This document shows positions 18,699-32,311 of a stretch of 64,000 bases of DNA, in pieces. The notes below the pieces were generated by a model, which worked only from the letters and a program-made list of their open reading frames with translations, made no database searches and was not told where the DNA came from. The DNA is from Solibacillus merdavium (GTDB taxonomy: Bacteria > Bacillota > Bacilli > Bacillales_A > Planococcaceae). Location of the stretch: positions 124,001 to 188,000 of the forward strand of contig NZ_JACSPW010000001.1 in NCBI RefSeq assembly GCF_014836935.1, written 5' to 3'. Made by a program: the position numbers and the translations under genes. Positions within the stretch are counted from its first letter, which is position 1. The number at the start of each line of letters is the position of its first letter.

Positions 18699-20240
18699 AT
18701 GAAGCAAAAATTAACGATGTTTATTATGCTACTACTTGCTGTTTTATTAATAGTTACACCCGTTTCTGCACAAAGTATTTCAACAATAGATGCTTATAAA
18801 ACGACGGGTGATTATATTGTAAAACAAGCACCAAGTCCTAAGTTCGGTGATGAATGGTTTATTATTGCACTTGCTCGCGGTGAATATAATGTTCCAAAAA
18901 ATTATTATGAAACGTATTATGAAAACGTTCTAAAACATATTCAGTCCATGAAAGGTGAATTACACAATCGTAAATATACGGAGTATTCACGTCTAATAAT
19001 TGCTCTTACTTCAATTGGAAAAGATCCAACTAATGTAGGAGGATATAATTTAGTTGAAAAATTGGGGGATTTCGATAAAGTCATTTGGCAAGGTCCGAAT
19101 GGTGCCTATTTTGCATTAATTGCGTTAGACACTTGGAACTTTGAACTTCCAAAAAGTGCTACGACTACAAGAGAAAAATTAGTAGATCATATTTTATCAA
19201 AGCAATTAGCTGATGGTGGATGGGACTTATCCGGAATGAAAGCAGATCCTGATATGACTGCAATGGCCGTGCAGGCACTGTCTACCTATAAAGATCGACC
19301 AAATGTAGAAAAATCAATAAATCGAGCGTTAGATACTTTACAAAAAATACAGGACGTTAATGGTGGTTATAAAAGCTGGGGAACATCCAACTCGGAAAGT
19401 GTAGCTCAAGTTATTACTGCATTATCCAGTATAGATATAGATTCAAAAGAGGATGCACGATTCTCTAAAGCATTCAATAGCTTTTTTACTTTCTACAATG
19501 CTAAAGATGGTGGGTTCAAGCATGTATTGACTGAAACAGCTTCTAACGGTATGGCAACAGAGCAGGCTTCCTATACACTGGCAGCCTATAATCGACTTTT
19601 GGCAGGAAAAACAAAATTATATGACATGTCGGATACAAAGAAAAATAAGCCTTCAACACCTGTTGAGCAAGAGAAACCAATTATAGCTCCTACTAAATTA
19701 AGCTTTAAAGATATTCAATCACATTGGGCAAAGGGTGATATTGAAGCTGCGGTAGCTAAAGGCTTATTAAAAGGATATGAGGATAATACGTTTAAGCCAA
19801 ATAATCATTTAACACGTGTCCAAGCTGTATCCATTTTAGTTCGTTCATTAAACTTGACGAGTACACAACAAGCGCCATTTACAGATATAGACCGTTATAG
19901 TGAAATTACGAAAAAAGAAATCGCAGCAGCGTATGAGGCAAAACTATTAACCGTCAATTCAGGTGAATTTTTACCATCGGCACCTATAACACGTGAGGAA
20001 TTATCGATTATGCTTTATCGTGCCTATACGTCTATAAATGGTCAAGCTTATATACCGAGCAAGGTAGTACCATTAAACGATATTAACAAGCTTTCGAATG
20101 AGTCAAAAAATGCGATTGCTTTATTATATGATTTTAATATTGCACAAGGTTCTAATGGAGCGTTTCAACCATTCAATTCATTAACAAGAGCGCATGCCGC
20201 AAAAATGTTTATTAACTTTTTAAAGGTAGTGGATAAATAA
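18699..20240 (+). CDS. SLH-anchored barrel protein, transcobalamin/intrinsic-factor alpha-domain-like
   Basis: 513 residues: signal peptide (1-25, ending VSAQS); an alpha-barrel domain (about 30-312) closely similar to residues 1140-1420 of the giant protein (shared KYTEYSRLIIALT, VGGYNL, NGAYFALIALDTW, DGGFKHVLTET); and three SLH repeats (about 334-513, SFKDIQSHWAKGDIEAAVAKG and following). It lacks a DUF4430 domain. The next gene, overlapping by one base (TAATG), encodes a lipoprotein with only the DUF4430 domain. I infer that the two together form a split two-domain corrinoid carrier, the barrel held at the S-layer and the other half at the membrane. Annotation pipelines would likely call it a prenyltransferase-repeat protein; an enzyme role is unlikely given the SLH anchor. 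Confidence 0.88.
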   Translation: MKQKLTMFIMLLLAVLLIVTPVSAQSISTIDAYKTTGDYIVKQAPSPKFGDEWFIIALARGEYNVPKNYYETYYENVLKHIQSMKGELHNRKYTEYSRLIIALTSIGKDPTNVGGYNLVEKLGDFDKVIWQGPNGAYFALIALDTWNFELPKSATTTREKLVDHILSKQLADGGWDLSGMKADPDMTAMAVQALSTYKDRPNVEKSINRALDTLQKIQDVNGGYKSWGTSNSESVAQVITALSSIDIDSKEDARFSKAFNSFFTFYNAKDGGFKHVLTETASNGMATEQASYTLAAYNRLLAGKTKLYDMSDTKKNKPSTPVEQEKPIIAPTKLSFKDIQSHWAKGDIEAAVAKGLLKGYEDNTFKPNNHLTRVQAVSILVRSLNLTSTQQAPFTDIDRYSEITKKEIAAAYEAKLLTVNSGEFLPSAPITREELSIMLYRAYTSINGQAYIPSKVVPLNDINKLSNESKNAIALLYDFNIAQGSNGAFQPFNSLTRAHAAKMFINFLKVVDK

Positions 20241-21136
20241 TGAAAAGAACAATTCGCTTACTAACAGTTGTTATCTTCGTTTTTTTATTAGCGGCGTGTA
20301 ATATTCAATCAGTCGAACAATATGAACAAATGAAAGAACAAGAGCGAAGTTTAGATTCAAAGTCTAAAATAGGCCAAGAACAAACAGTAAATCAGGAAAT
20401 AAAAGATTCAGAAAAAAATCATGAAAATATAAAAGAAGATAAATCAGAATCAGATAATGAAGAAGCTAGCCCTCCAAAAAAAGAGGAAACTTCAGAAATA
20501 AATAATAAGAAACAACCAATAGAAAACCAGGAAAAGAAAGTGGAAGCTAAAGAAGAAGCAAAGGACTCGATAAAGTCAGAGCGGCAGCCTCACAAAGAAT
20601 TACCGCCAAAAGAGGAGACTTCCAATAAAAAAACTGCTACTGATAATCAGAAAGTAGAAAAGCCGAAGCAGGTTCCTGTCGAAAAAAGTGAACTTCTAGC
20701 TGAAAAAAAGAAAACTGTTACAATTGCAATTCGCGTAGACACTTTGCTTAAAAATTGGGATAAGTTAGATCCAGCACTACAAAGTGATAAATATGTACCT
20801 AAAAACGGAGTCATATTAAAGCCGACAACGTACGAGCTATTATCTGAAAAAGATACCGTTTGGGACGTTCTACAACGTGCAACGAAAGAACATAAAATTC
20901 AACTTGAATATCAAGGGGCAAACGAAAATATTTATAACAGTGTTTATATAGAGGGAATTAATCATCTATATGAATTTAGCGCGGGTGAATTAAGTGGATG
21001 GATGTATAAAGTGAACGGTGTGTATCCTAATTATGGCTGTAGTCAATATGTTTTGAAAGATGGCGATGTAATAGAATGGCATTACACAGTTGATTTAGGA
21101 CGCGATTTAGGACATGTCTGGAAAAGCAGCGAATGA
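20240..21136 (+). CDS. DUF4430 (transcobalamin C-terminal-like) lipoprotein
   Basis: 298 residues. Lipoprotein signal with FLLAAC lipobox (Cys 20); a long Lys/Glu-rich, probably extended stalk (about 25-155); and a DUF4430 domain (about 158-295) with LSGWMYKVNGVYPNYG and WHYTVDLGRDLG near the end, matching domain 2 of the giant protein. In transcobalamin and intrinsic factor the equivalent beta domain covers the upper face of cobalamin (family knowledge). Overlaps the upstream gene by one base and EcfT by four (ATGA), so it is made with both. The stalk would let it reach from the membrane towards the barrel protein. Likely the membrane-proximal receptor half that passes ligand to the ECF transporter (inference). 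Confidence 0.88.
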   Translation: MKRTIRLLTVVIFVFLLAACNIQSVEQYEQMKEQERSLDSKSKIGQEQTVNQEIKDSEKNHENIKEDKSESDNEEASPPKKEETSEINNKKQPIENQEKKVEAKEEAKDSIKSERQPHKELPPKEETSNKKTATDNQKVEKPKQVPVEKSELLAEKKKTVTIAIRVDTLLKNWDKLDPALQSDKYVPKNGVILKPTTYELLSEKDTVWDVLQRATKEHKIQLEYQGANENIYNSVYIEGINHLYEFSAGELSGWMYKVNGVYPNYGCSQYVLKDGDVIEWHYTVDLGRDLGHVWKSSE

Positions 21137-22014
21137 AATCATTTGAAACTTTTCATCCACTGGTTATTTTCGCTTTTTTTGCTGCAGCTATTGGACTATC
21201 AATGTTTTTTATGCACCCGGCTTATTTAGTGATTACTATTTTCCTAGCAGTAAGCCTGAATATCGCCTTACGTAGAGGGCAGTTTTTTAAGGATTGGAAG
21301 CTATATGTTCCTTTATTTTTCCTTATGGCTATTATAAATCCATTAATTAGCCATAATGGGAAACTAGTATTGTTTTATATAAATTACAATGCCATTACAG
21401 TAGAGGCAATTGTTTACGGATTAAGCATTGCCACAATGATTGTTTCAATTATCCTATGGTTTAGCTGCTATAACGAAACGATAACTACAGATAAGTTTAT
21501 TTACTTATTCGGTAAAATATCGCCGGTATTCTCTTTAACGTTATCGATTAGCTTAAGGTTAGTGCCACGTTTTCAACAGCAATTACACAAAATATCAAAT
21601 GCTCAAAAGGTAATTGGCATGGATTATCGAAGTGGATCCTTATTACACCGTATTAAATGTACTCTTCGAATTATATCCATTCTAATTACTTGGGCATTGG
21701 ACAATGCAATAGATACGGCAGATTCCATGAAGGCGAGAGGTTATGGTATAGGGAAGCGGACATCCTTCTCTTTATTTATTTTTGAACGTCGCGACGGAAT
21801 AGTTTTGCTTTTCATTATGTTCCTTTTAATGGTGAATATTTGGGCAAGTATAATAGGTACAACAACTTTTTATTTTTATCCGACTTTTTCAATCATTCAA
21901 TGGGATTTAAAAAATATCCTATTTTATTGCAGTTATTTTCTCCTGCTTGCTATCCCAATAATAATCGAGATAAAGGGGGGAATCGAATGGAAATTGTTAA
22001 AGTCGAAAATGTAA
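21133..22014 (+). CDS. ECF transporter transmembrane coupling subunit EcfT (CbrV-like)
   Basis: 293 residues, about six membrane segments. The cytoplasmic coupling motif ADSMKARGYG (ARG type, about residues 197-206) is present, as in EcfT/CbiQ proteins that connect the ATPases to the S component. Its start overlaps the lipoprotein stop by four bases and its 3' end overlaps the ATPase gene by 28 bases. A dedicated EcfT beside its own S component indicates a group I ECF system. Function in cobalamin import is inferred from the riboswitch. Confidence 0.9.
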   Translation: MKSFETFHPLVIFAFFAAAIGLSMFFMHPAYLVITIFLAVSLNIALRRGQFFKDWKLYVPLFFLMAIINPLISHNGKLVLFYINYNAITVEAIVYGLSIATMIVSIILWFSCYNETITTDKFIYLFGKISPVFSLTLSISLRLVPRFQQQLHKISNAQKVIGMDYRSGSLLHRIKCTLRIISILITWALDNAIDTADSMKARGYGIGKRTSFSLFIFERRDGIVLLFIMFLLMVNIWASIIGTTTFYFYPTFSIIQWDLKNILFYCSYFLLLAIPIIIEIKGGIEWKLLKSKM

Positions 22015-23633
22015 GCTTTACATATCCAAATGAGTCAAAACCCATTTTGAAAAACATTAATTTAACTGTTGAACAAGGTGAATTCATTATTCTAATTGGT
22101 CAATCTGGTTGTGGAAAAAGTACATTACTACGACATTTTAAAAGTGAACTTTCTCCTCATGGTAAGAAAGCAGGTACATTTTTTTATGATGGTAAAAGGT
22201 TGGATGAAGTTATGCCTGAAAAGGCCGCATCGGAAATTGGCTATGTCTTTCAAAACCCGGACAATCAAATTGTAACGGATAAGGTTTGGCATGAATTAGC
22301 ATTCGGTTTAGAAAGCTTGGGAGTAGATAAACATACGATGCGTAGGAGAGTAGCGGAAATGGCTAATTTCTTTGGTATTCAGAAGTGGTTTCACCAAAAA
22401 ACTTCAGAGTTATCTGGAGGACAGAAACAGCTTTTAAACTTAGCCTCAATTATGGTGATGCAACCAAAACTACTATTGTTAGACGAACCAACATCTCAGC
22501 TTGATCCGATTGCTGCTATGGAGTTTATTCAAACGTTAAACCGTTTAAATAAAGAATTAGGCATAACTATAATATTGGTTGAGCATCGTCTTGAGGAGGT
22601 CCTTCCTATTGCTGACCGTGTTTTAATAATGGAAAAGGGGGACTTATTATTTGATGGCGACCCCCGGGAAATTATCAATACATTACCCCCAAAACATGAA
22701 TTGATTACAGCATTGCCAACAGCTACAAAAATGTACCACCTATTAGATGGTGAAGGACCAGTACCTCTGACGATTCGAGAAGGACGAAAATGGCTAGCAA
22801 AGAAAAAGGTCGATTTACATACTGGGAAACAGCTTCCTGTGGCCAGTGGCATTTCTAATACAATAGTTTTGGAAGCAAAAGATGTAGCTTTCCGTTATGA
22901 AAAAAATGCTACTGATATTATCCAGCACTTAAATTTACAAGTGAAAAAAGGAGAATTTCTAACTATTATCGGAGGTAATGGAACAGGGAAATCAACGGTC
23001 TTGTCATTATTGGCTGGCTTACAAAAACCATATCGAGGGAAGATTCTCCTGCACGATAAATTATTGAAAACTTATCGTAATAAAGAGCTTTATCAAAAAT
23101 TTATAACATTGTTACCACAGGAACCTAAAACATTGTTTGTTCAAAAAACGGTAAAGCAAGAGTTGGAAGATACAGCAAAATATCATAATATTTTGGATGA
23201 TAAAGTTGAGGAAATGATAATGCAATTTCAGCTAATTCATTTACTGCAGCGGCACCCCTATGATTTAAGTGGTGGTGAGCAGCAGAAATTAGCCCTTGCA
23301 AAGCTATTATTAATAGAGCCGGAAATATTACTGCTAGATGAGCCGACAAAAGGGCTGGATGCTTATGCAAAAGAAGAATTGGCTACTATTTTGAAAAAAC
23401 TACAAGTAAATGGACTGACAATTGTTATGGTGACACATGATATTGAATTTTCTGCTCAGCATAGTAGTCGCTGTGCTTTATTATTTGATGGAAATATCGT
23501 TTCAGAGGCTGATCCGCGTACTTTTTATAGTGGAAATAACTTTTATACTACTGCTGCACACCGTATTGCTAGAGGAATAATGAATGAAGTAATTGTTTGT
23601 GACGATTTGGTGATATTATGCAAAAAAGATTAA
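21987..23633 (+). CDS. Fused double ATPase of ECF transporter (CbrU-like)
   Basis: 548 residues with two complete ABC ATPase halves: Walker A GQSGCGKST with LSGGQKQ and LLLLDEPTSQLD in the first; GGNGTGKST with LSGGEQQ and ILLLDEPTKGLD in the second. This replaces the separate EcfA and EcfA' of general ECF modules. ATG 21987 is chosen for the AAAGGGGGG site 6-14 bases upstream; upstream in-frame codons lie inside ecfT. It overlaps EcfT by 28 bases and the S component by 16, so the three are coupled. Energises substrate uptake from the cytoplasmic side. Confidence 0.94.
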   Translation: MEIVKVENVSFTYPNESKPILKNINLTVEQGEFIILIGQSGCGKSTLLRHFKSELSPHGKKAGTFFYDGKRLDEVMPEKAASEIGYVFQNPDNQIVTDKVWHELAFGLESLGVDKHTMRRRVAEMANFFGIQKWFHQKTSELSGGQKQLLNLASIMVMQPKLLLLDEPTSQLDPIAAMEFIQTLNRLNKELGITIILVEHRLEEVLPIADRVLIMEKGDLLFDGDPREIINTLPPKHELITALPTATKMYHLLDGEGPVPLTIREGRKWLAKKKVDLHTGKQLPVASGISNTIVLEAKDVAFRYEKNATDIIQHLNLQVKKGEFLTIIGGNGTGKSTVLSLLAGLQKPYRGKILLHDKLLKTYRNKELYQKFITLLPQEPKTLFVQKTVKQELEDTAKYHNILDDKVEEMIMQFQLIHLLQRHPYDLSGGEQQKLALAKLLLIEPEILLLDEPTKGLDAYAKEELATILKKLQVNGLTIVMVTHDIEFSAQHSSRCALLFDGNIVSEADPRTFYSGNNFYTTAAHRIARGIMNEVIVCDDLVILCKKD

Positions 23634-24313
23634 GTCTCATAATTTCTTTAGTTATCATTTTTATATTCATCCCTCTCACTTTATACGCCGGCATTGTACT
23701 GTTTAATGATAGAAAATATTATTTTATATCAATCATGATAATAATTTTAGCATCGATTCCATTTTTCCTTTCGTTTGAGAGAAGGAAGCCACAGCCTAGA
23801 GAGATATTGATAATAGCAGTTATGTCAGCCATTTCTGTCACAGGGCGTGCATTATTTGTTATTACACCGGGTTTTAAGCCTGTTGCAGCAATTGCAGCAA
23901 TAACAGGTTTTTCACTTGGAGCTGAGGCAGGTTTTTTAACAGGTGCTATATCTGCTCTTGTATCCAATATGTTCTTTGGTCAAGGACCTTGGACTCCTTT
24001 TCAAATGTTTATGTGGGGAATGATTGGTTTTATTGGCGGACTATTAGGAAGGACAGGAATTATGCATAAAAAAATACCACTTATATTATTTGGGATTTTT
24101 GCGGGCATCCTATTTTCGTTTGGCATGGATATTTGGGGGACGATGTCTTTATATGGAGTGTTTAGCATGGAAGCTTATATAGTTGCTCTGACGTCAGCAG
24201 TTCCATTTACGATTGTTTATGCAGTGTCCAACGTAATTTTTTTATTAATACTTGCAAGGCCAATTCGTGAAAAGTTGGAGCGGATTAATAATAAATACGG
24301 GACATTTCAGTAA
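23618..24313 (+). CDS. cbrT: ECF transporter S component, probable cobalamin-specific (CbrT-like)
   Basis: 231 residues, about six membrane segments. Characteristic S-component sequence is visible: PGFKPVAAIAAITGFSLGAEAGFLTGAISALVSN followed by FGQGPWTPFQMF in the middle. It is the substrate-binding membrane protein of the ECF complex. Position as last gene of a B12-riboswitch operon with transcobalamin-like proteins supports cobalamin or another corrinoid as ligand; the family includes cobalamin (CbrT) and other vitamin transporters, so specificity is an inference. Overlaps the ATPase gene by 16 bases; a terminator follows. Confidence 0.82.
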   Translation: MQKRLSLIISLVIIFIFIPLTLYAGIVLFNDRKYYFISIMIIILASIPFFLSFERRKPQPREILIIAVMSAISVTGRALFVITPGFKPVAAIAAITGFSLGAEAGFLTGAISALVSNMFFGQGPWTPFQMFMWGMIGFIGGLLGRTGIMHKKIPLILFGIFAGILFSFGMDIWGTMSLYGVFSMEAYIVALTSAVPFTIVYAVSNVIFLLILARPIREKLERINNKYGTFQ

Positions 24314-24588: not shown

Positions 24589-24615
24589 TATAATGGCATT
24601 GAGAAATATTCTCTA
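24589..24615 (+). promoter_or_regulatory. Promoter -10 and Fur-like operator of the heme-uptake operon
   Basis: A TATAAT -10 (24589-24594) is followed at once by TTGAGAAATATTCTCT (24599-24614), a palindrome whose arms GAGAA/TTCTC match the 7-1-7 Fur box TGATAATnATTATCA in about 10-11 of 14 positions. Location over the transcription start suits iron repression. A related half-site (TGAGAAACAATCA) begins at 24560. No good -35 is seen at the normal distance. The rest of the gap (24420-24588) is AT-rich with no gene. Confidence 0.55.
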
Positions 24616-24656
24616 TTAGTTAATTACATATTATGAAGAAAAGGAGGAGAATTCGT

Positions 24657-25436
24657 ATGAAAAAAAACTTCTTCATGATTTTTGCGGCGCTTTTTTTGGT
24701 AGCGTTTACTTTGCCAAACACTTCATTTGCTGCAATTGCCGATGGGACTTACGAAGTGAACTATCAAGTAAATAAACCTGGCAGCAATTCGGCTTCCATG
24801 GCTAATGATTATTTTTTAAAGCCTGCCAAGTTAATTGTAAATAACGGTAAGATGACAATGCAGCTTACGATAAAAAACAGTAGCTGGGTTACAGAGTTTA
24901 AACCTCCGGGCGGGGCAAAAGTAATTAGTACAAATGAGTCTGCAGGTCAACGTACTGTTCAGTTTCCAGTGTCGAATGCAAATTTAGTAACAATCGCCAT
25001 GAAAATAGATATTGATGATATTGATTACCACCATGCCTATAGTGTGGATTTTGTATTCAACAGTTCAGGTTTACCAGAAGCAAAAGTGGACGAGCCTAAA
25101 GCGCAGGTAAAGCCAGTAAAAGAGGAAACAAATCAAGCAACATCTGCTAAGGAGTCAACAACACAATCGTCAGGAAGTAATACTTCTTCAAATAAAACAG
25201 CACCATCAACTGAACCACAAAAAACAGAATCATCAACAGAGCAAGCAACTACAGAAGCAAATACAGATGATTCTACAAAGACAGATGAAGAAAATGCATC
25301 TGAAATGGCGCAAGCTGAAAATTCAGAGGTAGTAGAAAATCCGGAGACGAGCGATGAATTACCGCTTGTGGCGATGATGTTATTCATCGTAGCGGCGATT
25401 GTATTTATTCGCACAAAACAAACAAAAACAAGATAG
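24657..25436 (+). CDS. isdC: IsdC-like NEAT-domain heme protein with sortase B signal
   Basis: 259 residues. ATG 24657 follows AGGAGGAG; the in-frame ATG 24633 precedes that site. Signal peptide (1-26, SFAA), one NEAT domain (about 28-145) with the heme-contact helix SMANDYF and a YHHAY (YxxxY) motif in the last strand, a Thr/Ser/Glu-rich linker, then NPETS (228-232), a hydrophobic helix and a charged tail. NPETS fits the NPxT[N/S/G] sorting signals used by sortase B, whose gene is 4.7 kb downstream in the same operon. IsdC-type proteins sit within the wall and pass heme to the IsdE lipoprotein. Confidence 0.9.
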   Translation: MKKNFFMIFAALFLVAFTLPNTSFAAIADGTYEVNYQVNKPGSNSASMANDYFLKPAKLIVNNGKMTMQLTIKNSSWVTEFKPPGGAKVISTNESAGQRTVQFPVSNANLVTIAMKIDIDDIDYHHAYSVDFVFNSSGLPEAKVDEPKAQVKPVKEETNQATSAKESTTQSSGSNTSSNKTAPSTEPQKTESSTEQATTEANTDDSTKTDEENASEMAQAENSEVVENPETSDELPLVAMMLFIVAAIVFIRTKQTKTR

Positions 25437-25455
25437 AAAATTGGAGGAAATGAAA

Positions 25456-27264
25456 ATGGTTAAAAAATCAAAAGCAACAAAAGCGGTCTTGGCATCGCTA
25501 TTAGCAACATCTGCAATTGTACCAGCAATGGCAGTATCTGCTGAAGTAGGTGGGGAAACGACTCGTACGGGTGAAGCAACAACTACTGCAGCGGCAAAGA
25601 CGATTGATTTTAAAGTAGATGCCCCTGAATCTTTACAGCGCTTTATTCCTACTACAGGTAAATTAGTTGAGCGAAATGGTCAGCAATTTATTAATCTGGA
25701 ATTATCTGACGCAGTATTAGGTATGGTAAATAGCGTAACAGTAGCGGGTCAACCAGCAATGGCTGAATTTAACGGAAAAAAACATATTAATATTCCAGTA
25801 ACAGCTGATTATGCGCCAGTGGAAGTAACTTTAAATATGACAATTACTTTCGTTGGTAAAGATCCGGTAGATTATAAAGTTACATTAACTCCAGATGCAA
25901 AATCAATAAAAGAAGCAACAGAAACAACTAAACCCGTTGAAGAAGCAAAAGAAGAAAAAATCTTCAAAGTAGGTAAAACATTCGATTCAGTAGCAGACGG
26001 TACTTATGATATTAAGTGGGATGCTTATAAAGATAAAGTAGGAAACTACAAAGCAATTACAAGCCATTTTTCACCTGATGCAAAATTAATCGTAAAAGAT
26101 GGCAAATATTCAGTACAGCTAACTATTACTGAAGATTCAAAAGCAATGGTACCGGATGTAACAATTGCGGGTAAAAATGTTGTTGCAAAAGATGGCATCG
26201 TTACTTTAGAAATTCCATCAATCAGTGATTTACATGAAGCTTCAGTACACGTTGTTGTACCTGCAATGAATATGGATAAACCTTATCCATTTGGCTTCGC
26301 TATTGAAACGGCTAACTTAGAATTACCAAAAGCAGAAGCTGCACCAGCACCAGCTCCGGTTGAAGCAACAAAAATGCCTGTTACTGTATTTAAAGATGGA
26401 ACAAAAGAACAATCAATTATGCAAGGCACATATTTAGCTAATGAAGTAATGGTTACTTCTACTGAGGGCGGATACGATGTTGATGTAACATTCCCACAAG
26501 GTCAATGGTTAAATGACTTCAAAGTTGAAGGTGCGACAGTAGCATTGAAATCAGAAGAAACTGTAGGGAAAAATACAGTTCAAATTTACACGATCTCATT
26601 AAAAGATATTAATGAGATTTATAATGCAACTGTTGATTTAACAGTTGATGCTGCTGGTGTAAAATATGATTCAGTTCATAAAGTACAATTACAATTCGGT
26701 GAAAAGAAACCAGTTCCTGTAGCAGCTCCATTTAAAGATATTGCTAACAACGGAAACAAAGATGCAATCGTTAATCTATTCAACAAAGGTATTTTCATCG
26801 CTGCAGACAACTTTAATCCAGGCAATAACGTTACACGTGCTCAGTTCGCTTTAATGTTAAACCGTGCATTAAAATTAGATGTACCAGCAAAAGCGGCGTT
26901 CACAGATATCGTGAAATATGGTGACGAAGCGAAAAAAGCGATTAACGCTTTAAATGGTTATGGCATCATCAATGGTAAAACAGCTACTACATTCGCACCT
27001 GCACAAGATGTGACTCGTAAACAAGCTGCATTAATGATCTACCGTTTATTAGAGAAGAATGGTTATACTGCAACTGGCGATACAGCTAAATTCTCTGATA
27101 TGCCAAAAGAAGTGGAAGCTTCAAAAGCAATTTCTGAATTAAATAAATTAGGTATTATTTCTGGTTTTGAAGGTAAGTTTAATCCAGAAAACAAATTAAC
27201 TCGTTCACAAATGGCTAAAATTTTAAACAATACTTTAACAGTTGTTGAAGGTTTAAAAAAATAA
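25456..27264 (+). CDS. NEAT-repeat surface protein with SLH anchor
   Basis: 602 residues. ATG 25456 lies eight bases after GGAGG; the ATG at 25450 is too close. Signal peptide (1-29, AVSAE); an N-terminal beta domain (about 43-150), then two NEAT-like domains (about 178-300, ADGTYDIKWDAYKD...; and about 308-420, MQGTYLANEVMV...), and three SLH repeats (425-602). The NEAT-like domains lack the SxxxxY helix and have YPFGF or YDSVH where heme-binding NEATs have YxxxY, so heme contact is doubtful and hemoprotein binding or scaffolding is possible. SLH anchoring replaces the sortase A-type anchor of IsdA/B/H. Confidence 0.82.
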   Translation: MVKKSKATKAVLASLLATSAIVPAMAVSAEVGGETTRTGEATTTAAAKTIDFKVDAPESLQRFIPTTGKLVERNGQQFINLELSDAVLGMVNSVTVAGQPAMAEFNGKKHINIPVTADYAPVEVTLNMTITFVGKDPVDYKVTLTPDAKSIKEATETTKPVEEAKEEKIFKVGKTFDSVADGTYDIKWDAYKDKVGNYKAITSHFSPDAKLIVKDGKYSVQLTITEDSKAMVPDVTIAGKNVVAKDGIVTLEIPSISDLHEASVHVVVPAMNMDKPYPFGFAIETANLELPKAEAAPAPAPVEATKMPVTVFKDGTKEQSIMQGTYLANEVMVTSTEGGYDVDVTFPQGQWLNDFKVEGATVALKSEETVGKNTVQIYTISLKDINEIYNATVDLTVDAAGVKYDSVHKVQLQFGEKKPVPVAAPFKDIANNGNKDAIVNLFNKGIFIAADNFNPGNNVTRAQFALMLNRALKLDVPAKAAFTDIVKYGDEAKKAINALNGYGIINGKTATTFAPAQDVTRKQAALMIYRLLEKNGYTATGDTAKFSDMPKEVEASKAISELNKLGIISGFEGKFNPENKLTRSQMAKILNNTLTVVEGLKK

Positions 27265-27480: not shown

Positions 27481-28386
27481 ATGAAAAAGTGGCTTATCGG
27501 ACTCGCACTAAGTGGTGCTGTACTTGCGGGTTGCGGAGATGGAGAGAAACAAACAGAAAACGCCGAAACAGTGGCAGAAAATACGGCTTCAGGCCAAGCG
27601 TCTGCTATAGAAGAAGAGCATCGAATTATTGCGGGAACAGTGGTAATCGCGCAAATTCTGGATCGATTAAATCTTAATGCTGTAGCGATTCCCGATACGG
27701 TTAAGGAATTGCCCTCGCGTTTTGATGGACTGCCTGACATTGGAAATGCGATGGACCCTGACGCAGAAATTATTAAGTCACTTAATCCTACTGAGGTATT
27801 GTCAGTTTCAACATTGGAATATGATTTAAAGGATAAATTTGAACAATTAAAAATTCCTGTAGATTTTGTGGATCTAACAAGTATTGAAGCAATGATGGAT
27901 GAGATAACGGTACTTGGAGAGCGCTACAATCGTGTAGAAGAAGCGAAACTATTAAATGATGAGTTACAGACGGAAATTGATGCAGTAAAAGTAGCTGCAA
28001 GTGATAAAGAAAAACCACGTGTCTTGATTTTACTAGGTGTACCAGGCAGTTATTTAGTAGCAACAGAAAATTCGTACGCGGGCGACTTAGTTCGTTTAGC
28101 CGGCGGGGAAAATGTAATGGCCGGTCAGGATGCAGAATATTTGCCTTCTAACACTGAATATTTATATTCTTCAAATCCTGATATAATTTTACGTTTAGCT
28201 CACGGCATGCCAGATGAAGTAATAAAAATGTTTGATGAAGAATTTGTGAAAAATGATGTTTGGAAACATTTTAATGCAGTGAAAAATGGACAAGTATTTG
28301 ATCTAGAAGAAGAGTTATTCGGTACGACAGCAGCATTGAATGTACCAGATGCACTTCATCAATTGGAGAAAATTTTCTATCAATAA
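27481..28386 (+). CDS. isdE: Heme ABC transporter substrate-binding lipoprotein (IsdE-like)
   Basis: 301 residues; lipoprotein signal with LAGC lipobox (Cys 18), then a bilobed TroA/periplasmic-binding fold typical of class III binding proteins (GLPDIGNAMDPDAEIIKSLNPTEVL near 80-105; ALNVPDALHQLEKIFY at the end). IsdE takes heme from NEAT proteins and gives it to the permease. AGGAGG ribosome site eight bases upstream. Followed by the matching permease and ATPase. Heme rather than siderophore specificity rests on the NEAT/SrtB context. Confidence 0.9.
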   Translation: MKKWLIGLALSGAVLAGCGDGEKQTENAETVAENTASGQASAIEEEHRIIAGTVVIAQILDRLNLNAVAIPDTVKELPSRFDGLPDIGNAMDPDAEIIKSLNPTEVLSVSTLEYDLKDKFEQLKIPVDFVDLTSIEAMMDEITVLGERYNRVEEAKLLNDELQTEIDAVKVAASDKEKPRVLILLGVPGSYLVATENSYAGDLVRLAGGENVMAGQDAEYLPSNTEYLYSSNPDIILRLAHGMPDEVIKMFDEEFVKNDVWKHFNAVKNGQVFDLEEELFGTTAALNVPDALHQLEKIFYQ

Positions 28387-28449
28387 CAATGTGAAAAAGC
28401 AAAGCCTTGAGGGAGGTTTTGCTGTTTCCTTACATAAAGGGTGTTTGCT

Positions 28450-29403
28450 GTGACAAAAAAAATCATTAGCTTTATAGCTGTTGCTGTTTTATTAATCATA
28501 ACTGTTATTTATGCCGCGACAACTGGCAGTATCCAAATGTCATTTATTGAATTTATAACAAATTTTTTTAATCCAGATAATGCAGATATGGCTGCCATTA
28601 AAGACTTGCGCTTTCCACGAATTATCGTTGCATTATTTGCTGGAGCAGCGTTATCAGTTGCGGGCGTATTGCTGCAGGCCATTATGAGAAATCCATTAGC
28701 CGATGCAGGATTTATTGGAATTTCCGCCGGGGCAGCATTTACTAAACTATTTATTGTTAGCTTCGTACCAACACTATTTTTCTTCACGCCTATCGCGGCA
28801 TTTATCGGTGGTGCGCTAGCTTGTTTCTTCGTTTTTTTACTTTCATGGAAATCAGGATTGAATCCATTAAAATTAATATTGGTCGGCATTGCGATTAATG
28901 CAATGTTTTCTGGTCTTACAGAAGCAATGATTAGCTTTGGTGCTTCTGCATCAGGATCGATTACATCTAATTTATCATTTAAAACTTGGGATGACGTATC
29001 GTTAATCGTAACATACGGCTCAATCGGACTTATTTTGGCAATAATTTTATATGCTTCCTGTAATGTCCTCGTGCTATCTGATAAAACAGCTAAAAGTGTG
29101 GGCTTTAACGTAACGGCTGCAAGAATAGTTATCGCCGCTGTTGCCGTTCTATTGGCGGCGGCTTCGGTTGTCGTAGCAGGTGTCATTTCTTTTGTCGGAA
29201 TATTAGTGCCACATATTGCGCGCCGACTTGTTGGTTATGATCATAAAGTGCTGATTCCTTTTACAGCACTATTAGGAGCATTTATTATATTATTAGCAGA
29301 CACGTTAGGTCGTACGATGTTTAGCCCGATGGAAGTGCCGGCTTCGACAATTATGGCGATTATCGGTGGTCCGTTCCTCATATTTTTACTTAGAAAAGAG
29401 TGA
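28450..29403 (+). CDS. isdF: Heme ABC transporter permease (IsdF-like, FecCD family)
   Basis: 317 residues, about nine to ten membrane helices, FecCD/BtuC type (RIIVALFAGAALSVAGVLLQAIMRNPLADAGFIG block; GVISFVGILVPHIARRLVGYDH coupling region). GTG 28450 is preferred to GTG 28441 because AAAGGG is eight to nine bases ahead. Forms the channel for the IsdE-like lipoprotein. The ATPase gene begins five bases after its stop. Confidence 0.92.
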   Translation: MTKKIISFIAVAVLLIITVIYAATTGSIQMSFIEFITNFFNPDNADMAAIKDLRFPRIIVALFAGAALSVAGVLLQAIMRNPLADAGFIGISAGAAFTKLFIVSFVPTLFFFTPIAAFIGGALACFFVFLLSWKSGLNPLKLILVGIAINAMFSGLTEAMISFGASASGSITSNLSFKTWDDVSLIVTYGSIGLILAIILYASCNVLVLSDKTAKSVGFNVTAARIVIAAVAVLLAAASVVVAGVISFVGILVPHIARRLVGYDHKVLIPFTALLGAFIILLADTLGRTMFSPMEVPASTIMAIIGGPFLIFLLRKE

Positions 29404-29407
29404 CAAA

Positions 29408-30178
29408 ATGGAAATTAAACAAGTAGTCGTTTCGCATGATGGTAAGGCGCGGCATTTAAATGAAGTATCCACAGTCATTCCGAAAGGGAAAGTAACGACA
29501 ATAATTGGTCCAAATGGTTGTGGGAAGTCGACATTATTAAGTGTAATGTCACGAAACAAGGTTCCGCTCGAAGGGAAAGCTACTCTTGAAAACCGAGATT
29601 TAGTCGAATATAAACCGAAAGAATTCGCAAAAAAGTTTGCGATTGTTTATCAGCAAAATGATATTCCGGCAGATTTAACTGTGGAGAAGCTTGTCATGTA
29701 TGGTCGCATGCCACATAATTCCCTATTTAAAAAGAAGACTAATGAAGATGAAGAGGCAGTAACATGGGCATTGCAATGTACGAATTTACTTGGTAAACGG
29801 CATAATGATTTATCTGCCCTATCAGGTGGGGAGCGTCAACGAGTATGGATTGCGATGGCACTTGCTCAGCAATCTGAAATACTGTGCCTGGATGAGCCGA
29901 CAACGTATTTGGATATTTATTATCAACTTGAACTGTTAGAGCTTGTAAAGCAATTAAATGAACAATATGGTTTAACGATTGTCATGGTTCTTCATGATAT
30001 TAATCAGGCAATTCGGTACAGTGACCATGTTATTCTAATGAAAGCCGGAAAAATCATTGCAGAAGGCCTTCCACGCGATGTCATTACAAAGGAAGTCATT
30101 AAGGAAGTATACGGTGTCAATTCCGTGTTTCATGAAGATGAAAAACTGGGACTTTATATGATGCCGTTAAGCATATGA
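29408..30178 (+). CDS. Heme/iron ABC transporter ATPase
   Basis: 256 residues, FepC/FhuC-type ATPase: Walker A GPNGCGKST (about 35-43), signature LSGGERQ, Walker B ILCLDEPTTYLDI, and an H-loop VLHDINQA. ATG 29408 follows the permease stop by five bases; the in-frame ATG at 29366 lies inside the permease gene and lacks a site. Partner of the IsdE-F-like proteins. In S. aureus the Isd system uses an ATPase encoded elsewhere, so an in-operon ATPase is a useful difference. Confidence 0.93.
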   Translation: MEIKQVVVSHDGKARHLNEVSTVIPKGKVTTIIGPNGCGKSTLLSVMSRNKVPLEGKATLENRDLVEYKPKEFAKKFAIVYQQNDIPADLTVEKLVMYGRMPHNSLFKKKTNEDEEAVTWALQCTNLLGKRHNDLSALSGGERQRVWIAMALAQQSEILCLDEPTTYLDIYYQLELLELVKQLNEQYGLTIVMVLHDINQAIRYSDHVILMKAGKIIAEGLPRDVITKEVIKEVYGVNSVFHEDEKLGLYMMPLSI

Positions 30179-30864
30179 TTATGCGACAATGGATTCGTGT
30201 ATTGAGCGCAGTTGTAATGATTGTTTGTGCAGTTATCGTTGTTCGGCATTACTTAGGATATAGTGAAGTAAACGAAAAGCTAGAACAGGCACAGCAAACA
30301 ATGGAACTAGGTGAGCTTAAGGAACTTCAGCAACAAAATAATAATATCATCGGGTGGCTTACATTGGAAAATACCCGATTAAATAATCCTGTATTACAAA
30401 CGGATAATAATGAATTTTACTTAAAGCATAATTATTTAGATGAAAAAAGTCGTGGTGGAAGTATTTTTGCTGATTTCCGAAATGATGTAATGGAAGATCG
30501 GCATACGATTTTTTATGGGCATGTTTTACGTAATGGTACGATGTTTGGCGATTTAACGAAGTTTAACGAGCAAGCTTATGCAGTAGAGCATGCTGTTTTT
30601 TATTATGAGACAGATGCCAATCGCTATGCTCTGCATGTATTTGCTGCATATGAAACGACAACAGATTTTTATTATATCGAAACGCAATTTACGAATGATA
30701 CATTTGACCAGTTCTTATTAGATATTCAACAAAAATCTTCAATAAAAATGCCAGTCGAAGTAGCAAATTCTGATAAAATCGCGACTTTTTCGACTTGTAC
30801 GACATCCCCTGACGACAAAGAACGATTTGTTGTTCATACAAAGGTAGTCGAACTAGAAAAATAA
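30175..30864 (+). CDS. srtB: Class B sortase
   Basis: 229 residues; an N-terminal membrane anchor (about 7-27) then the sortase domain with catalytic His116 (FYGHVL), Cys208 (STCTT) and Arg217 (ERFVVH) all present. Sortase B links IsdC-like proteins to peptidoglycan; the NPETS signal of the first gene in this operon is the expected substrate. The start overlaps the ATPase stop by four bases (ATGA). Confidence 0.95.
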   Translation: MIMRQWIRVLSAVVMIVCAVIVVRHYLGYSEVNEKLEQAQQTMELGELKELQQQNNNIIGWLTLENTRLNNPVLQTDNNEFYLKHNYLDEKSRGGSIFADFRNDVMEDRHTIFYGHVLRNGTMFGDLTKFNEQAYAVEHAVFYYETDANRYALHVFAAYETTTDFYYIETQFTNDTFDQFLLDIQQKSSIKMPVEVANSDKIATFSTCTTSPDDKERFVVHTKVVELEK

Positions 30865-30877
30865 GAGGTGAATCAAT

Positions 30878-31702
30878 ATGAAAAACAGAAAAAAAATAAT
30901 GTTTGCTTTGCTTGCAGTAGGATTATTGTCTGCATGTGGCACAAAAGAGGAAAATCCAGTAACAGAGCCTGTAGAACAGCAAGAAATTAAAATAGATGTA
31001 GCTGACGAGGCAGAGCAGTATAAATCACTAGTATTGGGGCAAACGGACAGCTTCACAGCAGATACCGAGCTTCTTGCCACATATGTGAAAGAAGGGAAGC
31101 TGGAAGAAGCACAAAAGCTATATCCTTTAGTAACAATGTACTATGAACGAATGCAGCCTCTTGCGTCAAATTTTCAGGAGCTTGACGTGAAAATTAATAG
31201 TGAAGTAGAAGAGGGAAAAGAAGCGGAGGCATCGGGCTTCCAAAGTTTGGCCCATGGATTATTTGTAGAGAAAAAAACTGCAGGCTATGAGGGAGTTGCC
31301 GATGAGCTTGTTGAAAATGTGAAGGCATTACAGTCAGAGCTTCCTACGATGGATGTTTCCGAAAATAATGTGTTAGCTTCAGCTATAACGATGTTCAACA
31401 CGATGGCAACGAACCGTTTGTCTGCACAAAGCATTTCTAATAATGAAGTATACGCTGTCAAAGCACAGACAGAAGCTGCGGAAGATTTATTGGAGATATT
31501 TATTCCCCGCGTCTCGACAGAAAGTGCTGAAACTACATCAGAAGCTTTGAAAGAATTAAATGAAATTGTCGCTTATTATGAAGTAGGAAAAGAAGACTAT
31601 GTGAACTATAGCTTCTTTACAGCAAAACAAAAAGAAGAGCTGAAAACAGCTGTTCAGCGTGTAGGCTCTGCATTACAGGAAATGAATGATTCATTGAAAT
31701 AA
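30878..31702 (+). CDS. EfeM/EfeO-like (peptidase M75 family) lipoprotein lacking the HxxE metal motif
   Basis: 274 residues; lipoprotein signal with LLSAC lipobox, Cys 20, then a four-helix-type EfeO/EfeM domain (YVKEGKLEEAQKLYPLVTMYYERMQPLA, GFQSLAHGLFVEKKT). In EfeM/EfeO proteins the central helix carries GFHRIE with the HxxE metal site; here the same place reads GFQSLA, giving Gln122 and Ala125 instead of His and Glu. It closes the heme operon, 13 bases after srtB. No EfeU permease or EfeB peroxidase is nearby, so it is probably not a classical ferrous-iron uptake part. A role in handling heme or iron at the membrane is conjecture. Confidence 0.78.
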   Translation: MKNRKKIMFALLAVGLLSACGTKEENPVTEPVEQQEIKIDVADEAEQYKSLVLGQTDSFTADTELLATYVKEGKLEEAQKLYPLVTMYYERMQPLASNFQELDVKINSEVEEGKEAEASGFQSLAHGLFVEKKTAGYEGVADELVENVKALQSELPTMDVSENNVLASAITMFNTMATNRLSAQSISNNEVYAVKAQTEAAEDLLEIFIPRVSTESAETTSEALKELNEIVAYYEVGKEDYVNYSFFTAKQKEELKTAVQRVGSALQEMNDSLK

Positions 31703-31732
31703 ATGTTCGAATGTAACAGAGAACAATACAAA

Positions 31733-31782
31733 AAAGCAGTACAAATTTTTTAAGTTAGGTAAAAATTTGTACTGCTTTTTTT
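31733..31782. terminator. Bidirectional terminator ending the heme operon
   Basis: AAAGCAGTACAAATTTTT pairs with AAAAATTTGTACTGCTTT around a ten-base loop, with a T-run on the plus strand and A-run before it, between convergent genes. Confidence 0.9.
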
Positions 31783-31813: not shown

Positions 31814-32311
31814 TTAGTTTAAAGCTGCATGCTTTATATATTGTTTTGCCGCTTGAGGTATATCTTTATATGAGATTTCATTAATTGTTTGAAGTGTTTG
31901 AGCATCGAATGCCAATGTGAATACTTCCGTATTTTTATTTTGCACCGGTCTGAACCATTTCAATGTGACATCATTTAAAGCTTCTACATGCTGGAGCTCA
32001 TTTAATAAATTGTAACTGTCTTTTAACAATGTAGTTTCATGTAAAAATTCAGTTGCCTGAAGTGAAATGGTAACATTATGTTTATCATCCATTGGTGTGA
32101 TTTCAATATTAAGTATAATATTTTCAATAAATTGTTGGAGCACAATTTCAGATATGGCAAGCATCGTTTGGAGCTTCAACTGTTCCGGAGAAACAGCAGC
32201 TTGGGCCTCTTCAATCGATTCTAGATGTTCCAAATTGTTTTTTTTCATAATATATTGTACTGAAATGACACAGACGAAAATAAGTAAAAATATTAGCATG
32301 AATTTCAGCAT
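31814..32311 (-). CDS. Membrane-anchored protein of unknown function
   Basis: About 165 residues: one N-terminal hydrophobic helix (MLKFMLIFLLIFVCVISVQYI) and a soluble, acidic, probably extracellular part with mixed alpha/beta pattern. Not recognised. The start is odd: a perfect AGGAGG (32332-32337) lies 20 bases upstream of ATG 32311, but eight bases upstream of an in-frame ATT at 32323, which would add MLNK before the helix. Whether ATT is used is unproven. It is convergent with the heme operon and downstream of the small 50-residue gene on the same strand. Confidence 0.65.
   Translation of the reverse strand: MLKFMLIFLLIFVCVISVQYIMKKNNLEHLESIEEAQAAVSPEQLKLQTMLAISEIVLQQFIENIILNIEITPMDDKHNVTISLQATEFLHETTLLKDSYNLLNELQHVEALNDVTLKWFRPVQNKNTEVFTLAFDAQTLQTINEISYKDIPQAAKQYIKHAALN

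Follow-up and report, generated by a model that had tools for sequence, protein, structure and literature searches.

An EfeM-like lipoprotein lacking most ligands of its family's metal sites is encoded last in a Solibacillus Isd heme-uptake operon

M75 proteins, Isd operons and the Solibacillus locus

Two potential metal sites have been described for EfeM of P. syringae (excerpts of PMC9174327). Site III comprises Tyr82, His126 and Glu129 of the HxxE motif, and Glu189 and Asp190 of GEEDRY; site IV comprises Glu90, Glu93, Glu97, Asp103, Asp107 and perhaps Glu179, and the metal in the Algp7-Cu and EfeO-Sm structures was matched to it. In S. aureus, FepA and FepB are both needed for heme-iron use in E. 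coli; FepB was 98% heme-loaded alone and about half apo with FepA, and a FepA mutant in which HKIE was changed to AKIA did not abolish growth (excerpts of PMC3577903). According to the same excerpts, no data at that time tied HxxE to metal binding. The role of EfeO, EfeM and FepA is therefore at issue, FepA being needed for heme-iron use and its named metal motif being dispensable. PIBO and IPPA, also M75 proteins, were without specific heme binding (excerpts of PMC3143127).

Isd operons of staphylococci, bacilli and listeriae bring together NEAT proteins, isdE, isdF, an ATPase and srtB. In S. aureus, isdG comes after srtB (excerpt of PMC5020093), and Listeria lmo2180, numbered beside srtB (lmo2181), is listed as hypothetical or Gp157-like (excerpt of PMC4481299). 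Among the matches listed in the open literature, no title or abstract opening placed an M75 protein in an Isd operon.

The locus described here lies in a 64,000-nucleotide stretch of the Solibacillus merdavium genome (hereafter the window), an assembly of 56 contigs rated 99.99% complete. It holds the same Isd gene set but, unlike those operons, ends with an M75 lipoprotein. On the + strand, the operon encodes an IsdC-like NEAT protein (24633–25436; NCBIfam IsdC 175.5 bits against a cut-off of 155.85; Pfam NEAT), whose translation carries a C-terminal sorting signal of NPETS, a hydrophobic stretch and a basic tail; a surface protein with NEAT and three SLH domains (25399–27264; Pfam NEAT, SLH), the true start of which is probably slightly downstream of the listed TTG; the heme-binding lipoprotein IsdE (27481–28386; NCBIfam IsdE 391 bits, cut-off 298.65); the FecCD permease IsdF (28441–29403; Pfam FecCD, E = 1e-80); the ABC ATPase of the heme importer (29366–30178; Pfam ABC_tran, E = 2.6e-30), which NCBIfam siderophore/heme ATPase models match, none over its cut-off among the 25 matches listed; and sortase B (30175–30864; NCBIfam sortase_srtB 200 bits, cut-off 153.75). 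The M75 gene (30878–31702, +) encodes 274 amino acids with a lipoprotein-type signal (lipobox LLSAC, Cys20 in the translation). It begins 13 nt behind srtB and is followed by an intrinsic terminator at 31730–31781, a near-perfect inverted repeat plus T-run (fold −29.9 kcal/mol, z −6.1), which makes it the last gene of an isdC-NEAT/SLH-isdE-isdF-ATPase-srtB-M75 operon, as the first-pass annotation of this DNA had proposed. Our promoter and terminator scan performed near chance level and missed this terminator, the loop of which exceeds the length permitted in the scan.

Upstream of isdC, a Fur-box-like palindrome, TTGAGAAATATTCTCTATTAG (24599–24619, +), lies beside a conserved promoter-like element (TGGCATGCTATATAATGG). 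Among the 12 orthologous upstream regions in the genus, 11 retain the palindrome with slight variation. The classical Fur consensus is absent from the window; looser Fur patterns were not clearly above chance there, and the TGAGAANNATTCTC match alone was not above chance. The palindrome makes the isd operon a candidate for Fur control. On the other side of the operon, between it and an aldehyde dehydrogenase gene, is a 165-aa ORF with a hydrophobic N-terminus (31814–32311, −), conserved across the genus whether or not isd is present and lacking a Pfam match at E 0.001.

The coordinates and residues first reported for the M75 gene were correct (the translation reads SGFQSLAHGLF, with Gln122 and Ala125), and so was the homology to EfeM. 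The protein matches NCBIfam EfeO (E = 5.8e-37; 127.6 bits, short of the cut-off of 270) and Pfam Peptidase_M75 (E = 0.0041; 17.2 bits, short of 23.5), and phmmer against the PDB retrieved EfeM of P. syringae (7q1g, E = 7e-19), EfeO (3e-18) and Algp7 (8e-18). An AlphaFold2 model built from four sequences (pLDDT 79.3, pTM 0.76) matched EfeO, Algp7 and EfeM with Foldseek E values of 5e-10 to 9e-9 and Z scores of 26–28 across 235–243 residues. Matches that scored below Z 13 in VIA-align, among them talin, catenin, FAT domains and designed heme bundles, were set aside as common helical bundles. Model and homology place the M75 two-bundle helical fold at residues 37–274; judged by these matches, the window protein belongs to the M75/imelysin fold family as a distant member. 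In Solibacillus faecavium, the closest named relative, the M75 protein is 89% identical and the six upstream operon proteins are 89–99% identical. A search for a second, intact EfeM elsewhere in the window genome returned this single full-length M75 match and, beyond it, nothing more than a 21-bit hit covering the first 48 positions of the profile.

The window protein shares with P. syringae EfeM and the C-terminal M75 domain of EfeO (7q1g, 7wgu) its fold, 22% identity, export and an iron-linked context. Unlike them, it keeps only Y82, E90 and D103 of sites III and IV, and its gene sits in an Isd operon instead of an FTR1 and DyP operon. Like FepA of S. aureus and YwbM of B. subtilis, it is a short M75-only lipoprotein without a cupredoxin domain, and FepA, too, is tied to heme iron use (excerpts of PMC3577903). 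FepA, however, keeps HKIE and works with FepB, a DyP protein, whereas the window genome is without FepB or FepC relatives and the neighbours are IsdE, IsdF and SrtB. IPPA of Psychrobacter arcticus (3pf0) has the M75 fold (Z 20.4, 13% identity) and has likewise lost the motif His (GxxxxE), with few site IV residues conserved (excerpt of PMC9174327). IPPA nevertheless keeps the motif Glu, unlike the window protein with its A125; only two orthologues introduced below, L002 and L003 (RxxE), fit the IPPA type. Of the EfeM-defining features that we tested, this EfeM homologue retains the fold and no other, and it is best called an Isd-linked, metal-site-less M75 lipoprotein.

Metal sites of isd-linked and efe-linked proteins

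The phmmer alignment to 7q1g runs without gaps from residue 38 through site IV, so that EfeM and window residue numbers coincide there. At the EfeM ligand positions of this region, the window protein has Y82, E90, Q93, S97, D103 and N107: in the former site IV (codons 89–108, YERMQPLASNFQELDVKINS; 31142–31201, +), E90 and D103 are kept and the changes are E93Q, E97S and D107N. Further on, G-F-H126-R-L-E129 of 7q1g pairs with G-F-Q122-S-L-A125, GFQSLA thus replacing GFHRLE of site III (codons 120–125; 31235–31252, +). The region that held E179 and GEEDRY (codons 174–189; 31397–31444, +) has T175 at the E179 position and a loop shorter by two residues, and has lost its acids and its constraint.

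For the residue counts, 84 distinct M75 proteins were aligned: 14 isd-linked, the window protein included, and 70 efe-linked. Of the latter, 50 came from the family (in which 92 genomes have such a match) and 20 from outside, taken from the 107 non-family genomes with a match in the class-level search. Rows identical over the C-terminal 150 residues were merged into one, and the G253 fragment and the G156 remnant were excluded from the counts. For each of the 70 efe-linked proteins, a DyP/EfeB gene lies no farther off than about 20 nt; FTR1 was not seen near eight of them, all with short flanks retrieved.

Every efe-linked protein (70/70) keeps Y82, E90, E93, E97, D103, D107, H126, E129, E179 and E189 (P. 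syringae EfeM numbering). In the isd-linked set, E90 and D103 are present in 14/14 and Y82 in 13/14; E93, E97 and H126 are each found in 0/14. D107, E129 and E189 occur in two members each, the same two (L002 and L003), and E179 in two others (L038 and L039), with Asp at that position in a further three. In 12 of the 14, the GEEDRY loop is shorter by two residues; E188 is present in none, E189 in two, and an acid at 190 in none. L002 and L003, with their RxxE motif, have retained D107, E189 and the loop length, and they lie on the opposite side of the deepest split within the isd-linked group; to judge from them, the break-up of the sites may have been stepwise.

The loss of HxxE reported in the first pass therefore holds beyond this genome: the window protein reads QxxA, and the motif His, present in 70/70 efe-linked homologues, is absent from all 14 orthologues adjoining srtB, where the same loss had been suggested as a check. 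A strain-specific mutation, one of the two findings named beforehand as undoing the claim (the other, an alternative metal site, is weighed below), is ruled out by this count. An ordinary EfeM with a lone motif change is ruled out as well, since site IV and GEEDRY are also broken; with sites III and IV and GEEDRY all changed, the HxxE substitution is one part of a break-up of both sites.

Distribution, constraint and linkage to Isd

M75 matches occurred in 107 of 261 genomes in the family-level search (the order-level search also spanned 261 genomes and listed the same ones). A profile of the isd-linked proteins set 14 matches apart at 408 bits or more, all remaining matches in these genomes scoring at most 206 bits. 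No further isd-type member was found in 398 genomes drawn from the class, in which only the window's own genome exceeded 206 bits. The gene occurs in Solibacillus and the Lysinibacillus odysseyi group, described as soil bacteria, where it is the 3'-terminal gene of the Isd operon; in all 14 cases it is directly behind srtB, with 2–40 nt between the ORFs. In an unrooted tree, a branch 3.4 changes per site long, with 100/100 support, separates the 14 isd-linked proteins from all others; the tree program warns of long branches elsewhere in the tree.

Among the 16 genomes of the genus, the M75 gene is present in exactly the 12 with IsdE over the cut-off and intact in none of the other four. The first pass had remarked on the absence of EfeU and EfeB nearby, and this absence extends to the whole window genome, in which neither FTR1 (EfeU) nor DyP (EfeB) has a match. 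FTR1 over its cut-off together with DyP was found in three of the 16 (G150, G151 and G156) and in 0/12 carriers of the M75 gene (the EfeU/EfeB searches left out G059 and G061); G153 is without the isd-linked M75 gene, IsdE over the cut-off, FTR1 and DyP. We found no M75 or SrtB match in G150, G151 and G153 at the syntenic place, within the roughly 14–15 kb that precede the shared aldehyde dehydrogenase gene. The corresponding place in G156 holds a remnant of the isd-linked M75 gene, consisting of the C-terminal 92 codons and a stop (L047:8519-8794), with no isd match there and an efe operon elsewhere in the genome. By this survey, an intact copy of the isd-linked M75 gene is missing in 4/4 genus genomes without this Isd operon. 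As members of a genus are related, the 12/12 co-occurrence represents few independent events.

The tie concerns this Isd type only, since G151 and G156 lack an intact copy of this gene and yet have a distant IsdE-like importer. Their IsdE-like proteins score 216 and 212 bits, below the cut-off of 298.65, and similar ones exist in the M75 carriers G160 and G161; the four genes (L107, L108, L111 and L112) score 175–216 bits, and their neighbouring permease and ATPase are only 35–45% like those of the window, so the distant IsdE-like protein belongs to another importer. Conversely, of the 98 family genomes in which IsdE exceeds the cut-off, 84 are without the isd-linked M75 gene, and Isd thus works without it. 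At 20 other isd loci in 19 genomes, some of them ended by the contig, no M75 gene was seen closer than 6.5 kb to isdE on the same strand. A general mutual exclusion of Isd and Efe was rejected because, outside this lineage, G182 and G056, among others, carry an efe-type M75 match together with IsdE over the cut-off.

Two minor observations concern these loci. In other isd operons of the family, the ORF behind srtB (L176, L178, L179, L180, L181 and L189) encodes what we take to be a YceI-like protein, and a similar ORF adjoins the M75 remnant in L047. In G042, two IsdE copies of identical score lie on one contig (C1:11441-12319 and 4664596-4665474), perhaps a duplicated isd region or a contig-end overlap.

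Mean dN/dS (NG86) of the M75 gene was 0.177 against the nearest relative (SrtB 0.253) and 0.146 among five close relatives (10/10 pairs; SrtB 0.149). For the window compared with those five, where dS is near saturation, it was 0.139 (SrtB 0.133). The M75 protein is thus constrained; its values are comparable to those of the faster-evolving genes of the operon and exceed those of IsdE, IsdF and the ATPase. The position of the constraint has moved. Codons 233–245 (31574–31612, +) encode a loop, YYEVGKEDYVNYS, that is a new near-invariant block of the isd-linked clade, with a mean entropy of 0.12 in the 14 isd-linked versus 1.47 in the 70 efe-linked proteins. Residues 172–184, beside the old GEEDRY loop, show the reverse (1.52 isd-linked versus 0.24 efe-linked); the two sets differ in size and diversity, their overall means being 1.00 and 1.20, respectively. 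The model has helices at 164–180, 189–211, 214–235 and 249–273, from the topology of which the old GEEDRY-side loop and the 233–245 loop would be expected to share one end of the C-terminal bundle; the model is of low confidence there (loop block means 58–64).

Proposed role and rival explanations

The first-pass annotation took the loss of HxxE to mean that the protein seems repurposed, perhaps towards heme or a structural task. Repurposing is favoured by the clade-wide loss, the purifying selection, the shift of constraint and the co-occurrence with Isd, but the argument from HxxE alone is weak, because changing HxxE to AxxA in S. aureus FepA leaves activity (excerpts of PMC3577903). The stronger point, read from the alignments, is that the acidic site IV, the one matched to metal in the Algp7 and EfeO structures, is broken as well. 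Fold, lipoprotein signal, operon place, ligand loss, purifying selection, constraint shift, the tie to Isd and the lack of EfeU/EfeB matches in the genus's carriers are all established at the sequence level; from the ligand loss and the gained conserved loop, the analysis suggests that the protein aids heme uptake without metal binding of its own.

As a specific form of this, we propose, with about an even chance of being right, a metal-independent, EfeM-derived accessory of the Isd importer that would dock through the YYEVGKEDYVNYS loop on IsdE or a NEAT protein and aid heme hand-over. An EfeM would have been recruited into the Isd operon; the protein encoded there has lost most ligands of both family metal sites. 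The lipoprotein would sit on the membrane's outer face beside IsdE, with the conserved loop as its contact to IsdE or a NEAT protein; these are the likely partners, given that FepB and FepC relatives are missing and that IsdE, IsdF and NEAT proteins are the neighbours. There it would promote heme hand-over or turnover without metal, much as FepA acts on its partner FepB. Because FepA acts without its HxxE motif, an M75 protein can help a partner turn over heme without HxxE. In that precedent, the partner of FepA was a DyP peroxidase, and the recombinant proteins were apparently active in the E. coli cytoplasm (excerpts of PMC3577903).

Other functions must be weighed against this one. NEAT proteins use Tyr as a heme ligand, and the M75 protein might itself bind heme in a relay from NEAT protein to IsdE, with a Tyr ligand in the loop (Y233, Y234, Y241 or Y244) or at Y88/Y89. 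Its place in the Isd operon and a Tyr-rich loop invariant in 14/14 would fit such a relay; however, the efe-linked homologues listed mostly have an aromatic residue where Y234, Y241 and Y244 stand, so that these are not new, and there is no invariant His in the isd-linked set. In addition, the cleft of M75 proteins was considered too small to hold heme unless changed, and two M75 proteins were negative in heme tests (excerpts of PMC3143127). We therefore regard direct heme binding as the weaker rival to an accessory role, and as unlikely. Somewhat less probable again is residual metal binding, in which E90, D103, Y82 and acids at 101 and 190 would form a re-shaped site feeding free iron to some other importer. 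Conservation of E90 and D103 (14/14), Y82 (13/14) and Glu at 101 (13/14) and 190 (12/14) speaks for it, yet E93, E97, D107, H126, E129, E189 and D/E190 are lost in 12/14, mostly to uncharged residues, and FTR1 has no match in any of the 12 carriers in the genus.

We think it improbable that the protein serves wall assembly instead of heme transfer, as a chaperone for SrtB or its NEAT substrates. The gene is always next after srtB (14/14) and its dN/dS is similar to that of srtB, but this place is also simply the operon end, and other isd-srtB operons have no M75 gene. A decaying EfeM copy without function, to which the long branch leading to the clade (3.4) and the broken remnant in one relative (G156) might point, is very improbable: we reject it on dN/dS values of 0.14–0.18, the gene is intact in 14 genomes with a near-invariant block at 233–245, and the G156 remnant occurs where this Isd operon is also gone.

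The 14 natural orthologues, without most ligands of both metal sites and under selection near a heme importer, help to separate the metal-carrier from the heme-protein-partner role of M75 proteins, and the loop at 233–245 is singled out as a candidate functional site. The gene is also a lineage-specific addition to a kind of heme-uptake operon that is well studied. A broader proposal, to which we give rather less than an even chance, is a separate M75 class in which an iron-binding EfeM turned into a metal-free accessory subunit of a sortase-B/NEAT heme importer, constraint having left the metal cleft for an adjacent loop, which would dock on IsdE or a NEAT protein. If true, this would suggest that M75 proteins serve at their core in partner-assisted hand-over of heme or iron, not in metal binding.

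Upstream of isd, at 18699–24313, the window encodes a surface protein that combines an alpha/alpha-toroid (prenyltransferase-like) domain with SLH domains, followed in our listing by a DUF4430 lipoprotein and by the parts of an ECF transporter: a CbiQ-like T component, an ATPase that looks double in translation, and an S component. Toroid and DUF4430 together, as we take it, resemble the two domains of intrinsic factor/transcobalamin, and by this likeness the region may serve to capture corrinoids at the cell surface and take them up through an ECF importer of its own.
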